A DNA stretch of 35,983 nucleotides, taken from positions 1 through 35,983 of IMG/VR virus record IMGVR_UViG_3300044681_000091, one strand, 5' to 3'. A model generated the notes under the pieces. It did no database searches and was not told where the DNA came from. It saw only the letters and a program-made list of their open reading frames with translations. Position numbers and translations under genes: made by a program. Origin of the DNA: a virus. Below are positions 1,208 through 33,217 of the stretch, piece after piece. Numbering within the stretch: position 1 is the stretch's first letter; every line of letters starts with the position of its first letter.

Positions 1208-3019
1208 TTATTTAGTTTTAGGATAAGCACCTCCGTTTGGCATATCAGCAGGTCTAATACCTACTTCTGCTGGATTAACAGGCTCTACAAAACCTTCAGA
1301 CTTAGCCTTAGAAGCATCTACTTCAGACCCAGCTTGTACTTTAAGTCTATATACCTTTCTCTCCCATAGGTGCTTGCAGTTCTTGCCACCTTTGAATTTT
1401 AATAGTGAATAGTTGCGTTTCTTGTGACCAAGCTCTGCATTCACCCCATTAAAAGACATCATATCAATGTCCTCTTTACGGAACACAATGTTTCTCTCAG
1501 TAAGAGCCTCCATCTTCTGGCAGAACAATCTACTTCCAGGACTCTTTCTCATCGGAGAATAAGCATAACGCACCTTAAATCCGTTATTATCTTGCTTAGA
1601 GTTCTTTTCTGGAGACGCATCTCGCTCTGACACCTCTTTTAAGGCTATTTTAAGCTCTTCTAACGAACTTTCTGTGCCATCTAATACTTGGCTATCAATA
1701 AGCTCCCATTCGTCGCTTACAACCTCTCCTAAATCGAAAAGAGTATTATATAGTTCTTCACCCTCTTCATCAGAGAAGTCATCCATCTCACAAGACTCTA
1801 AGTCAGAAGATAATTTAGCCTTCTCACCAGTCTCTTCTTCTTTGCGTACTTTAGTCTCGATGTTGTCAAGTTCAGTAAACTCGATAGGTTGTAGAGTAAC
1901 AAAGTATAGGTTTAAGTAGATACCATTGAAGTTTAGTATCTCGTTAAAGCCATCAATAAGGTCTCTTTGGAAAGGTCTGATTACTACGTTATCCATAATA
2001 ACAGAAGCAGTCCTAAGCTCTTCAGCGTTGTTACCAAAGCCTGTGTTGTCTTTAATACCCATAAGGATAGGAGAAACAATTCTGTGACCCATCATAATCT
2101 TCTCTCTTGCCTCAGTAGATAAGAACTGATATTGTGCGTGTGCATCTGGCAAGTGAATAGGTTCTAAGTCAGCTTTAGCATCAGCAGACTCGTTAAAAGT
2201 CAAGATAAACTTACCTGCATTAGAAGACCCACTGAATTTATCATATATCTTACGCTCTATAATCTCTTGAGTCTCTTCTGGTGGAACACCATTATTGAAG
2301 TTAATCAAAAGAGAAGGCTGAAGACCATTCTTTATATTGTTGATGTGGTAGTTAGAAACCTCTTCTTCTAAGTTGCAATACTGAAGACATCCGTTATAGT
2401 CAACAGGAGCATAGTAATAGAAACCAGATTTATAAGGTTTGATAACAAACATCTCAATAGTTTCTGTCTTACTGCCATTACCAAAAGAAGGGATTCTCTT
2501 AGGTTTATCTTGTGGTTTAATATCACACCACTTAGGATGGTAATACCAAGCCTTAATCTTACCTTCAGATGCCTTCTCTGCTCTCAATGTTTCCATTGGG
2601 AAGTGTAGCACCTGTAAGATTTGTGTCTTTTGTTTGTTATATACAACTTGAATAGCTGCTTGACCAAGCATCTTGTAGTCATTTACAATACGCTTTACAT
2701 CTTTAGCTTTAAAGAGAAGTTTAAATTTGGCATACATCTCTGGCTTGACATCGCTATCTGTAGCCTCAAGACCTCTACCATAAATCATCTCTGAGATACC
2801 ATTTATACACCCAGCATTAGTTGGACTGCCCAAATAACGCTCAATAAGCATATCAAAGTAATCGTTGTACTCTCCGTACTCAACCCAGTCTCTGTTATAT
2901 ACCTCTTTAACTTCTGGAGAGGCATATCCAGACAGATTCACAACCTTTACAGAACTCTTGTATTCTGCTTTAGGCTGAGGCTGGGCTTGCATCGTTACTC
3001 TTCCTATTTTCTTAGTCAT
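1208..3019 (-). CDS. Portal protein with C-terminal extension
   Basis: 603 aa. Residues 1 to about 390 have the make-up of a phage portal: an early YNRDWVEYGEYNDYFDMLIERY segment region, a helical clip/stem area, then AREKIMMGHRIVSPILMGI followed by NNAEELRTASVIMDNVVIRPFQ, the typical late-portal helix. Portals form the dodecameric ring at the capsid vertex through which terminase pumps DNA. After an acidic linker (about 390-475) comes an additional domain with VRYAYSPM, SRLFCQKM, KEDIDMMS and a GGKNCKHLWERKVY motif (Cys548, His550). I associate that block with other Bacteroidota phage head proteins; its role is unknown. The gene lies late in the virion operon, downstream of capsid and tail tube, rather than next to terminase. 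Confidence 0.85.
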   Translation of the reverse strand: MTKKIGRVTMQAQPQPKAEYKSSVKVVNLSGYASPEVKEVYNRDWVEYGEYNDYFDMLIERYLGSPTNAGCINGISEMIYGRGLEATDSDVKPEMYAKFKLLFKAKDVKRIVNDYKMLGQAAIQVVYNKQKTQILQVLHFPMETLRAEKASEGKIKAWYYHPKWCDIKPQDKPKRIPSFGNGSKTETIEMFVIKPYKSGFYYYAPVDYNGCLQYCNLEEEVSNYHINNIKNGLQPSLLINFNNGVPPEETQEIIERKIYDKFSGSSNAGKFILTFNESADAKADLEPIHLPDAHAQYQFLSTEAREKIMMGHRIVSPILMGIKDNTGFGNNAEELRTASVIMDNVVIRPFQRDLIDGFNEILNFNGIYLNLYFVTLQPIEFTELDNIETKVRKEEETGEKAKLSSDLESCEMDDFSDEEGEELYNTLFDLGEVVSDEWELIDSQVLDGTESSLEELKIALKEVSERDASPEKNSKQDNNGFKVRYAYSPMRKSPGSRLFCQKMEALTERNIVFRKEDIDMMSFNGVNAELGHKKRNYSLLKFKGGKNCKHLWERKVYRLKVQAGSEVDASKAKSEGFVEPVNPAEVGIRPADMPNGGAYPKTK

Positions 3020-3397: not shown

Positions 3398-3429
3398 ATT
3401 CTTTATATAATACAAACTCAACAAAGAGT

Positions 3430-3445
3430 TCTATACATATAACTA
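3430..3445 (-). promoter_or_regulatory. AT-rich element TAGTTATATGTATAGA, candidate promoter
   Basis: The minus strand reads TAGTTATATGTATAGA. A near-identical copy, TAGTTATATAAATAGA, lies upstream of the scaffold gene (5674-5689), and a shorter version (TAGTTATATAGA, 15364-15375) lies just upstream of the first virion gene. Here it sits between a terminator (3476-3504) and the next gene, where a promoter would be expected. It does not match TAnnTTTG, so it may be a site for a phage-specific sigma factor or just AT-rich leader. Confidence 0.3.
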
Positions 3446-25979: not shown

Positions 25980-26402
25980 TTAATTATATTGGTTTAGGAG
26001 TATCTTTAAATCATTCCAGATAGCTAAAAAGCATCTGCCACAACTTGTAGGTTGTTTATTAACGTGAAATACTCGGTTATAGATGGCAAGCATCTTTTTC
26101 TGATGCACAGGTGTAATTACACTTGAGTTCTCATTAAGCCTATCCATAAGATAGTTGTACTCAGCTTCCGTAAAGCACTCTGGTTTGTTGTATCTAAACA
26201 ACTCATTTAGTTTAGCCTTACGCTCATCACATCCGCAGTCTTCTCCAGCAATAAACTTTACCGCCTTCTTAATACCTGTAGCTTCTGTAATCTTTTCAAT
26301 AGTGTCTCCAAGTCCAGTAGATTGATTGCTTGTTTCGCTATCAAACTTAGCCTTCCATTCTCTGTACTCTTTTGTTCTTTTGTCTCCTTTAAATGCTTCC
26401 AT
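25980..26402 (-). CDS. Cys-rich hypothetical phage protein
   Basis: 140 aa: TGLGDTIEKITEATGIKKAV, then KFIAGEDCGCDERKAKLNEL, then PECFTEAEYNYLMDRL, ending SCGRCFLAIWNDLKILLNQ. The DCGCDERK motif plus a late CxxC could form a metal-bound or disulphide core. I recall the same layout (GDTI...TGIK....  DCGCDER...LN) in many Bacteroidota phages; no function known. It overlaps the sigma-like gene by 14 nt. Confidence 0.62.
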   Translation of the reverse strand: MEAFKGDKRTKEYREWKAKFDSETSNQSTGLGDTIEKITEATGIKKAVKFIAGEDCGCDERKAKLNELFRYNKPECFTEAEYNYLMDRLNENSSVITPVHQKKMLAIYNRVFHVNKQPTSCGRCFLAIWNDLKILLNQYN

Positions 26403-26970
26403 TGTTTTTAGATTTTTTTTTGATTAGATGAAAGTCTCCGTTAAAAAAGTCTTCTACATCCTCCATAAATTTATCCTTCAGTATCTTCCTGTAATTCTTT
26501 ACTGAGTTGAATATAGATGTTAGACTTATCTTACTTATAGAGGATATATCCCTTAAAGACATATCCGATTTAAAATATGTGTTACACAACTTAGCGTGAT
26601 AGACATCCCAAGAGTTAATCTCCTCAGACACCATCTCAATCAAAGAACCTAAAGCCCTATCTAACTCTTCGCTCTTTTCATCAGTTTGCTCATCCTCTAT
26701 GTCATCAGATTCTATGTACTCATATATATCAACAAACCTATACTTAGACTTCGCCTTAGCGTAGCTAAAATATAGGTTTCTTAAAGTAACGAATATATAA
26801 AACTTGTTGACCTCGTCATCATCGTACATAATCCTCTCATCATCCTCAACGTACTTATATACGTTTAGGTACATTTCGTGGACAATGTCTTCGGCTACAT
26901 CTTTAGGGCAGCCAAAACTTAGAACCATTCTAAGCCACAAGTCGTGATTCTTTGCAAGTATCTCAAGCAT
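26389..26970 (-). CDS. Sigma-70-like (ECF-type) phage factor
   Basis: 193 aa from ATG at 26970. Residues about 22-77 look like sigma region 2: CPKDVAEDIVHEMYLNVYKY, then KFYIFVTLRNLYFSYAKAKS. After an acidic linker, residues about 135-170 look like region 4 with an HTH: MSLRDISSISKISLTSIFNS, VKNYRKILKDKF. It likely directs RNA polymerase to a later gene class. The start at 26970 is favoured over 27006 because the upstream 58-codon gene ends exactly there (ATGCTTGA overlap) and a purine-rich AAGGGAAAGAG precedes it, one of the few SD-like sites in the window. Confidence 0.72.
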   Translation of the reverse strand: MLEILAKNHDLWLRMVLSFGCPKDVAEDIVHEMYLNVYKYVEDDERIMYDDDEVNKFYIFVTLRNLYFSYAKAKSKYRFVDIYEYIESDDIEDEQTDEKSEELDRALGSLIEMVSEEINSWDVYHAKLCNTYFKSDMSLRDISSISKISLTSIFNSVKNYRKILKDKFMEDVEDFFNGDFHLIKKKSKNNGSI

Positions 26971-27139
26971 CTCTTTCCCTTTGGTATAATATGTGTATAA
27001 ACACAATTCCTAAGCATATCCTAATTAGGTTAAACTGCTCCGCCTCCTCTGTGTATTCAAAACCATCTGGTTCTACATCGTGAAGAACATCTATACCTAA
27101 CAGAAACCCATAAATTAATTCAAAGCTAACCCAAAACAT
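26963..27139 (-). CDS. Small membrane protein (58 aa)
   Basis: MFWVSFELIYGFLLGIDVLH, then DVEPDGFEYTEEAEQFNLIR and ICLGIVFIHILYQRERDA. Two hydrophobic segments flank an acidic loop, so a two-pass membrane protein is predicted. Its stop overlaps the sigma-like start, and it begins 1 nt before the NinG gene end, so all three are translated in series. I have an impression of similar proteins in Bacteroidota phages; role unknown. Confidence 0.62.
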   Translation of the reverse strand: MFWVSFELIYGFLLGIDVLHDVEPDGFEYTEEAEQFNLIRICLGIVFIHILYQRERDA

Positions 27140-31671: not shown

Positions 31672-32097
31672 TCACCAAAGATAAAAACCGTATTCTTTTA
31701 AGTCATCAACATCGAAATACACAACTTCTCTGTTTACCGCAATTCTCGCAACACCAAATAATATCAGTTGCTGAATTAGGTTAAATCTCCTTTTATGTCC
31801 AACACAACGAAGCCTAACTGCCTTTCCAGCCCTATGTGAATCGTTGCTGACTAACTTTATTTTATCGGCATAAACCTTAGAAACATATCCAAGGTCAACC
31901 TTTATAACCATTCTGTTTCTGGCACATATCTCATCAAGCAATACGACAAGCTCTCTGTCCATAAACCTAAATCCACTTCCTGGAGTATCTGGACTATCAA
32001 ACATATCCCAAGTCAAAACCTTTAATCCAAAGGTGTTATTGTCTTGCTCTTTCTCAGCAATCTTATCGACAAGGTTTTTGTTCGCTTCCATTATCAT
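31672..32097 (-). CDS. M15-peptidase-like protein with altered metal ligands
   Basis: 141 aa. The layout follows phage D-Ala-D-Ala carboxypeptidase-like (Peptidase_M15_3) proteins: FDSPDTPGSG, FMDRELVVLLDEICARNRMV, VDLGYVSK in place of the usual SGYR, SNDSHRAGKAVRL, and RRFNLIQQLILFGVARIAV. But the ligand Asp of SH-x6-D is Arg95, and the second His-x-Asp is Asp129-x-Asp131 instead. Only His88 is kept. So it probably cannot bind catalytic zinc and may be a peptidoglycan-binding or regulatory derivative. It lies outside the lysis cassette. Start may be the third codon (ATG at 32091). Confidence 0.62.
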   Translation of the reverse strand: MIMEANKNLVDKIAEKEQDNNTFGLKVLTWDMFDSPDTPGSGFRFMDRELVVLLDEICARNRMVIKVDLGYVSKVYADKIKLVSNDSHRAGKAVRLRCVGHKRRFNLIQQLILFGVARIAVNREVVYFDVDDLKEYGFYLW

Positions 32098-32104
32098 TGT
32101 TTAC

Positions 32105-32377
32105 TTACTGCTTGTCTTGTGTTCTAAGCATTAGGCTACCTTGTCTTTCATCAATAGACTTTATAGCTCTGTATATAACTCTTGTCTTTCTCTTGACATC
32201 ATCAACCTCACCTTTCTTAGATTCAGAGCCAAGATTAGCATACATATTAGCGTTTAACTCAAGAAGAGAGTCTATCTTCTCTACATCTGAATAAGACTTG
32301 TGTGATAATACTCTAAATACAAAATCTTCTAATTCTTCTTTGCTTGGTATCTTCGCTGGAATATCTATGTCTTTCAT
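32105..32377 (-). CDS. Conserved small Bacteroidota phage protein
   Basis: 90 aa from ATG at 32377 (MKDIDIPAKIPSKEELEDFV); a reading from 32449 adds a leader in the promoter region. Continues FRVLSHKSYSDVEKIDSLLE, then LNANMYANLGSESKKGEVDD and VIYRAIKSIDERQG. The pattern KIPSKEELEDFV.RVLSHKSYSDVEKIDSLLELNA is one I associate with many related phages, role unknown. First gene of the leftward unit facing the plus-strand promoter at 32442; -7-like elements TACATTTG (32403-32396) and TAAATTTG (32417-32410) precede it. Confidence 0.65.
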   Translation of the reverse strand: MKDIDIPAKIPSKEELEDFVFRVLSHKSYSDVEKIDSLLELNANMYANLGSESKKGEVDDVKRKTRVIYRAIKSIDERQGSLMLRTQDKQ

Positions 32378-32441
32378 TGTATATCTTGATTGAAACAAAT
32401 GTAGTGAAACAAATTTAATTAAAATTTTAACATTTGACTTG

Positions 32442-32471
32442 TTGCACATAAACTTTTTTCACATATATTTG
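32442..32471 (+). promoter_or_regulatory. Plus-strand consensus promoter TTG-N19-TATATTTG
   Basis: TTG at 32442-32444, a 19-nt spacer and TATATTTG at 32464-32471 is a perfect Bacteroidota -33/-7 promoter, and the only full match on the plus strand that I found in a gene-free region. It points into 32475-32763, which has no gene. It is divergent from the leftward early unit. Confidence 0.78.
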
Positions 32472-32476
32472 CAGAG

Positions 32477-32763
32477 ATGATTTAAGCGTCTGAAAACACG
32501 ATTCGGTCATCAGCTTATAAATGTGGTAGAATGGGAAGCAGACACACCACAACTTCAACCTAAAGCAAACGAAGGTCTGTACTCAGTAGGATGAGTGGAA
32601 TTGCAAGTCTTAGAACCTACATTACTAAGATGTCCTAATGCTCTCAAGAACTCAACTGAAGCAATTAATGGACAGGGTGGCTTAGGGCTACCTATGTCCA
32701 TACGCAACTCAGAATCTAACAAAAGCAATTAGCTAAATAGAGACTATATAGAGATATAGCTCT
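32477..32763 (+). ncRNA. Candidate structured RNA downstream of plus-strand promoter
   Basis: About 285 nt with at least seven helices: GATGATT/GGTCATC (32476-82, 32505-11), TGTGGT/ACCACA (32522-27, 32546-51), CAGAC/GTCTG (32539-43, 32575-79; crosses the previous helix, so a pseudoknot), ACTCA/TGAGT (32581-85, 32592-96), AATTGC/GCAATT (32599-604, 32661-66) enclosing CTTAG/CTAAG (32609-13, 32625-29), GGACA-GGTGGC-TTAGG-GCTACC-TA-TGTCC (32670-32699), and a final AGAG-CTATAT/ATATAG-CTCT hairpin (32739-32763). G-U pairs favour the plus strand. It is not a tRNA or tmRNA by any sign I can see. No T-run terminator follows. Confidence 0.7.
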
Positions 32764-33217
32764 TAATAATCTTCTTAGCAAGCAAAATAAAGATAACTAA
32801 AAAGACAAGAGGCAACAAGTAAGCGTAGTTAGTCCTCTTAACTTCTTTATCTAAAGACTTCTCTTCTTTAATAGACTCTTCAGACTTATTATCTTGTACC
32901 TCCGTAGAAGCGTTTACAGACGATTTAAGAGACTCTTTCTTTTTTCTGATAGTTACAGACTTTGCATTAGAGAAAGTCCTTGTAACGCCTCCTAAAGTTA
33001 TTTCAACAGGCTTCAGAGAGTCTTTTGCTATGACTTCTATCTCAAAGGTGTCTATGTTTAAGAGAGTAGAGTCTTGGGTAGTATGTTTAATGATTGTATT
33101 AGTCTCAGTCTTTATAGACTCTTTAGACTCTGTCTTTGCTATTTGTTTTTTAACTGAACAAGACGTAAACGACAAACTACTAATCAATAGTATCGCCAAA
33201 GTAATAATTAGCCTCAT
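32744..33217 (-). CDS. Unimolecular-spanin-like lipoprotein (u-spanin candidate)
   Basis: 157 aa. Signal peptide MRLIITLAILLISSLSFTSC ends in a lipobox-like FTSC, so Cys20 would be lipidated in the outer membrane. The middle is charged and Ser/Thr/Lys/Glu-rich, with two predicted coiled-coil parts. The C-terminus has a membrane helix (YAYLLPLVFLVIFILLAKKI). Lipid anchor plus C-terminal TM is the make-up of u-spanins, which link and fuse inner and outer membranes at the end of lysis. It overlaps the lysozyme gene by 38 nt. Assignment rests on topology and position, since spanins share little sequence. Confidence 0.65.
   Translation of the reverse strand: MRLIITLAILLISSLSFTSCSVKKQIAKTESKESIKTETNTIIKHTTQDSTLLNIDTFEIEVIAKDSLKPVEITLGGVTRTFSNAKSVTIRKKKESLKSSVNASTEVQDNKSEESIKEEKSLDKEVKRTNYAYLLPLVFLVIFILLAKKIIKSYISI

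Follow-up and report, generated by a model that had tools for sequence, protein, structure and literature searches.

Introduction

ROOL and GOLLD are elaborate phage RNAs with no assigned function, the former containing multiple pseudoknots (PMC12286853). Both often occur near tRNA islands, and GOLLD is often more than 800 nt in length. The HEARO RNA and the omega RNA of IscB are structured RNAs that can sit directly upstream of an HNH ORF. The small RNAs of phages include the c4 antisense RNA (PMC2864571).

Here we describe a candidate RNA, hereinafter family W, from a 35,983-base IMG/VR phage record, the whole of which we refer to as the window. The RNA spans positions 32472–32735 of the plus strand (~265 nt), its 5′ end being placed from a −7 promoter box and its 3′ end where conservation stops. 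It is like ROOL and GOLLD in being phage-encoded and elaborate, but differs from them in size and fold, has no tRNA in the window (ARAGORN made no call there for a tmRNA or tRNA-like RNA), and is not matched by their Rfam covariance models. With c4 and other phage sRNAs it shares a small size; unlike c4, it displays a conserved tertiary fold and an orientation-independent location, and no target complementarity was identified, the one host genome looked at being uninformative. As with HEARO and omega RNAs, an HNH ORF lies directly downstream in one relative (L155), but this ORF has just 138 aa, does not directly follow the RNA elsewhere, and the RNA matches no Rfam family.

An earlier sequence-only reading of this DNA had proposed that the plus strand harbors a structured RNA not yet described, with an Infernal search against Rfam as a check. 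In such a search of Rfam 15 nothing was recovered at the gathering cut-off; with E-values up to 5, one search returned two meaningless sub-threshold matches and another none. No Rfam model of a group I intron or known ribozyme was matched either, and the RNA is intergenic in all inspected loci. Family W is thus undescribed as a class in Rfam 15, and as a kind it joins the ornate phage RNAs such as ROOL and GOLLD. From the covariation and the strong conservation relative to its nearest relative detailed below, we conclude that a real, conserved, structured RNA is almost certainly present at this locus.

Location and Boundaries of the RNA

All plausible genes of the window are on the minus strand, as previously noted, and the RNA lies in a gene-free stretch at 32378–32743. 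On the early side it is flanked by a minus-strand gene of 90 aa with no known function (32105–32377); the 114-aa ORF listed there begins too early, as the relatives start with MKDIDIP, which places the true start at 32377. On the late side is a minus-strand gene for a spanin-like lipoprotein (32744–33217) that is convergent with the RNA. Farther along the early side, the minus-strand gene A1 (31672–32097) and its relatives code for a conserved protein with the signature FDSPDxPGSG...SHRxGKA...YFDxD, which by eye resembles an M15 peptidase that has lost its metal-binding residues but has no Pfam match. The window also codes for a sigma-factor-like protein (26389–27006, minus strand; PHROG 1740), relatives of which are present in most of the RNA-bearing contigs.

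The end of the RNA was earlier taken to overlap the last spanin codons in antisense. However, conservation runs out at about 32735, without a conserved terminator at the 3′ end, whereas the 3′ end of the spanin gene is at 32744. A hairpin that does overlap the spanin gene (32740–32762) stems from an 11-nt tandem repeat; since this repeat is missing in the closest relative, L004, the hairpin falls outside the conserved element.

Promoter and Conservation among Relatives

The consensus of Bacteroidota promoters is TAnnTTTG/TTTG (PMC7366714). Immediately upstream of the RNA, a promoter-like sequence of the form TTG-N19-TATATTTG occupies 32442–32471 of the plus strand, with the −7 box TATATTTG at 32464–32471. 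As this pattern has 2 matches in the window against 0.8 expected, the promoter alone is weak evidence. Comparison with the relatives splits the earlier proposal of a rightward Bacteroidota promoter into two parts. The −7 box TAnnTTTG is retained immediately 5′ of the RNA, with little variation in spacing, in all homologues with contigs reaching that far, whereas the −33 TTG is not conserved, being correctly spaced only in the window and L004. Such a box is in line with recognition by the main sigma factor of Bacteroidota, and promoter and gene content together suggest Bacteroidota as the hosts.

Homologues were fetched from IMG/VR by an exact 20-mer from the element, CAACCTAAAGCAAACGAAGG, which is present in at least 15 other contigs of uncultivated phages, namely L004, the close relatives L154 and L155, and twelve farther ones (L156–L167). 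In this distant set the window RNA can be aligned over about 260 nt, and the DNA just outside has no visible similarity to the window. A covariance model built for the family (R3) has matches of 118–137 bits in 16 records, among them the training sequences; the window, itself in the training set, scores 119.8 bits (E = 3.6e-23) and, with its covarying S1, S2, S4, S5 and PK2 (see below), is accordingly a member of family W. Beyond these records, a search of 50,697 phage records and 72,556 plasmids turned up no homologue, and R3 had no match when run on 19 records of related phages in their entirety, these having been reached via the family S (see below) and A1 loci. None of the 395 genomes from the phylum of a Bacteroidales MAG matched R3, a weak result given that this search was run without a positive control. 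Nonlabens phage P12024L, the isolate whose terminase comes closest (51% identical), is without this RNA at the equivalent place; an R3 match of 17.6 bits elsewhere in its genome has many broken pairs and was taken as chance.

The nearest relative, L004, has the same layout as the window and differs from it by 2 substitutions and no indels over the 316 nt from the promoter to the RNA end, as against 32 of 375 third codon positions in three flanking genes (p = 4e-7). One of the substitutions (32545) is at an unpaired position and the other (32631, T to C) turns a G-U pair of helix S5 into G-C. We read this pattern as pointing to purifying selection on the promoter and the RNA; the low divergence is support rather than proof, since local recombination could lower it as well. 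Both substitutions would be nonsynonymous in the sole overlapping ORFs of the plus strand, which argues against a protein reading. A peptide-coding role was likewise dropped for both this RNA and that of family S, there being no conserved ORF in either.

Secondary Structure, Pseudoknots and Covariation

The structure was assessed on a structure-aware, hand-fitted alignment (with N as filler) of 13 distinct sequences over 32472–32735, which fall into two main clades, 4 of the window type and 9 of the other type. All helix arms of the window were checked base by base. The 5′-most element is the hairpin P1 (32476–32511), pairing GAUGA with UCAUC in the window and UCUUG with CAAGA in the other clade, with 4 of its 5 pairs compensated around an invariant inner CGU/ACG (32487–32489/32498–32500). 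It is followed by an H-type pseudoknot: S1 (UGUGGU, 32522–32527, with ACCACA, 32546–32551; 5 of 6 pairs compensated and three helix versions outside the window clade) is crossed by S2 (GCAGAC, 32538–32543, with GUCUGU, 32575–32580; 3 pairs compensated). The hairpin S3 (CUUC/GAAG, 32553–32574), with the loop AACCUAAAGCAAAC, is invariant, but the 20-mer used for finding the relatives would itself account for this, and the invariance is not evidence.

Downstream, the hairpins S4 (ACUCA/UGAGU, 32581–32596; 2 pairs compensated) and S5 (GUCUUAG/CUAAGAU, 32607–32631; 5 pairs compensated) are joined through their loops by a second crossing interaction, PK2 (GUAGG, 32586–32590, with CCUAC, 32616–32620), in which 2 pairs are compensated and 100% of cells are paired. 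The 3′ portion holds the helix S8 (32639–32663) and the long hairpin S6/S7 (32670–32699), of the form GGAC-A-G-GGUGGC/GCUACC-UAU-GUCC, in which GGAC/GUCC is replaced by GGAU/AUCC among the relatives. S8, which changes from UGCU/AGCA to ACUC/GAGU in the other clade, was counted by script as an eleventh helix outside the set of ten analyzed below.

Across these ten helices and 52 pairs, 99.1% of cells are paired, and 22 of the 52 pairs show a compensatory change. The covariation score is 0.401; shuffles gave 0.148, with none of 500 as high, and sliding the partners by 1–3 columns lowered it to 0.068 or less, these slid-partner controls yielding 0–3 compensated pairs. As the sequences fall into two main clades, fewer independent events underlie these numbers than the count of cells would imply. 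Variation is also seen within the larger clade, where S1 occurs as CUGGC/GCCAG, CUGAC/GUCAG and CCGAC/GUCGG, PK2 as ACAGG/CCUGU and AUAGG/CCUAU, and S5 in two versions, with one S2 pair varying between G-U, G-C and A-U. The prior description of at least seven helices with one crossing pair and a GGACA-GGTGGC hairpin is therefore upheld and strengthened: the stems are almost always intact in the relatives, both helices of the S1–S2 pseudoknot have compensated pairs, and S6/S7 is recovered in the alignment. PK2 was absent from that description. To our knowledge, few new RNA classes contain two pseudoknots that covary independently of each other.

Folding energy was discarded as a line of proof, the MFE z-score being an unremarkable −1.83 on the plus strand and −1.61 on the minus strand. 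The plus-strand value is what might be expected if the helices were chance products of an AT-rich spacer without any functional RNA, but the compensatory changes contradict such an origin and, along with the sequence conservation, make it barely credible.

Genome Context and Orientation

Across the phage contigs carrying it, the RNA is always located between late and early genes. In the window, L004, L154 and L155 it opposes the genes, with spanin/lysozyme genes on one side and a small early gene on the other. Another 12 contigs have it pointing the same way as the genes at the same late/early boundary; this co-directional arrangement is seen in L157–L167, where in the inspected loci the RNA lies between a small basic late ORF, itself behind a holin-like gene, and early genes (a 50-aa ORF and NinG). 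The boundary is thus kept while the orientation flips, which leads us to favor a separate RNA gene over a leader, a riboswitch or an antisense regulator of lysis. A cis-regulatory leader is further disfavored by the window having no plausible plus-strand gene downstream of the RNA.

Regulation of lysis by a cis-antisense RNA or convergent transcript acting on the spanin gene, as the sequence-only reading had entertained, would be in keeping with the RNA converging on the 3′ end of that gene in the window. However, the spanin overlap is not conserved, an RNA running with the genes in L157–L167 cannot be antisense to them, and it is structure rather than complementarity that is conserved. We hence consider such regulation improbable.

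The RNAs of the window and L154 are about 98% identical, as opposed to 41–85% for the flanking proteins, which suggests exchange between phages. This raises the alternative of a mobile cassette, either an element resembling a ribozyme or intron, or an RNA that homing endonucleases bring along. In its favor, L155 codes for an HNH endonuclease-like protein (1476–1892, minus strand; identified with PHROGs) on the RNA's own strand and immediately 3′ of it, and L049 has, in the slot that holds the RNA in its relatives, a GIY-YIG-like ORF (by eye; 1619–2050, minus strand) behind a Bacteroidota-type promoter. Nevertheless, the RNA interrupts no gene, has no intron or ribozyme match in Rfam even at E-values up to 5, and is not directly followed by an HNH ORF in the window or the other inspected loci, rendering a mobile element an unlikely explanation.

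A Second RNA Family in the Same Slot

Dozens of related phages that have the dn/A1 gene in common (the dn protein scan found only 5 loci) carry another RNA in this slot, about 80–150 nt long and on the same strand, hereinafter family S (~100 nt). It is found upstream of the A1-like gene in L005, L001, L034, L045, L030, L019, L104, L098, L040, L029 and L047, and further in L050, L038, L042, L012, L112, L115, L118, L120, L123, L125 and L131. Of 20 records tested, 15 have its promoter, TTGACnnTGTCA...TGTAACTTTG, at roughly one copy per genome, and chance matches are few. In L005 (4122–4152, minus strand), L029 and L050 the family S promoters have a palindromic −35 region, TTGACWWTGTCA, possibly an operator. 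In more distant relatives, TTG-N19-TAnnTTTG is seen in the equivalent place (L053, 5976–6005, minus strand; L062, near 1977, minus strand), followed by another gene-free stretch.

The family S fold is a single hairpin, stem-(G)(A/U)-AGY-loop-RCG-A-stem, whose motif is loop-E-like by eye; in a hand-made alignment 85% of its cells are paired, with a covariation score of 0.725 as compared to 0.197. A 3′ block, GGMUARSUAURUY, is present exactly once in each of 32 loci, and the family has no Rfam match. We dropped a general outer stem P1 for family S, as the swap control was not significant, and likewise the idea of its 3′ motif being an exposed seed, as it is no more unpaired than the rest.

Families S and W share the locus, the strand, a Bacteroidota-type promoter and the blocks CCUAAAGC (in some members of S, and as a loop in the window RNA) and GGCUANCUAURUC. 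The window carries the family S 3′ block with one mismatch at 32686–32698; the corresponding block near the 3′ end of both families, GGCUANCUAUGUC, which they may share through homology or by chance, is part of the S6/S7 hairpin in family W and is found at 3426–3438 (minus strand) of L029. On the other hand, the folds differ and the models do not cross-detect: the models of the family S P2 hairpin (R1/R2) reach a best plus-strand score of 2.9 bits in the window and miss its hairpin, for which reason the window RNA was dropped as a diverged member of family S. The two families may be distantly homologous, or they may be unrelated and have only the slot in common.

The constant late/early position with a flippable orientation, and the occupation of the slot by an apparently unrelated short RNA in related phages, as might be seen with exchangeable origin modules, bring up an action in cis, as a replication-origin transcript or primer, or as a packaging or transcription-boundary element between the late and early modules. 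Indeed, a replication or packaging element would also fit the orientation and position. Against this, there is no GC-skew switch at the locus, no iterons were found there, and two pseudoknots exceed what a primer needs; an action in cis is accordingly unlikely, if slightly less so than a mobile element.

Functional Implications

The best reading of family W is that of a stand-alone, trans-acting structured phage RNA, to which we assign a probability of roughly 0.6 on the strength of comparative sequence analysis. Under this proposal, the RNA gene at 32472–32735 of the plus strand would be transcribed from the putative Bacteroidota-type promoter into a transcript of ~265 nt predicted to fold compactly with two pseudoknots. 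Its orientation and position suggest that it might act in trans during infection, most likely by partnering a protein or host machinery rather than by simple antisense pairing.

Extending this to both families, we tentatively suggest that the late/early boundary in a large, uncultivated group of siphophages of the Bacteroidota type might be a dedicated RNA-gene slot, in which unrelated structured RNAs (a 265-nt double pseudoknot and a 100-nt hairpin) are swapped as cassettes, each possibly acting in trans on the host, e.g., on its RNA polymerase, ribosomes or a defense system. The consensus fold of family W is defined and its length is within reach of structure determination and biochemistry, and, with its slot also being filled by a second RNA family, the purpose of structured phage RNAs becomes directly testable.
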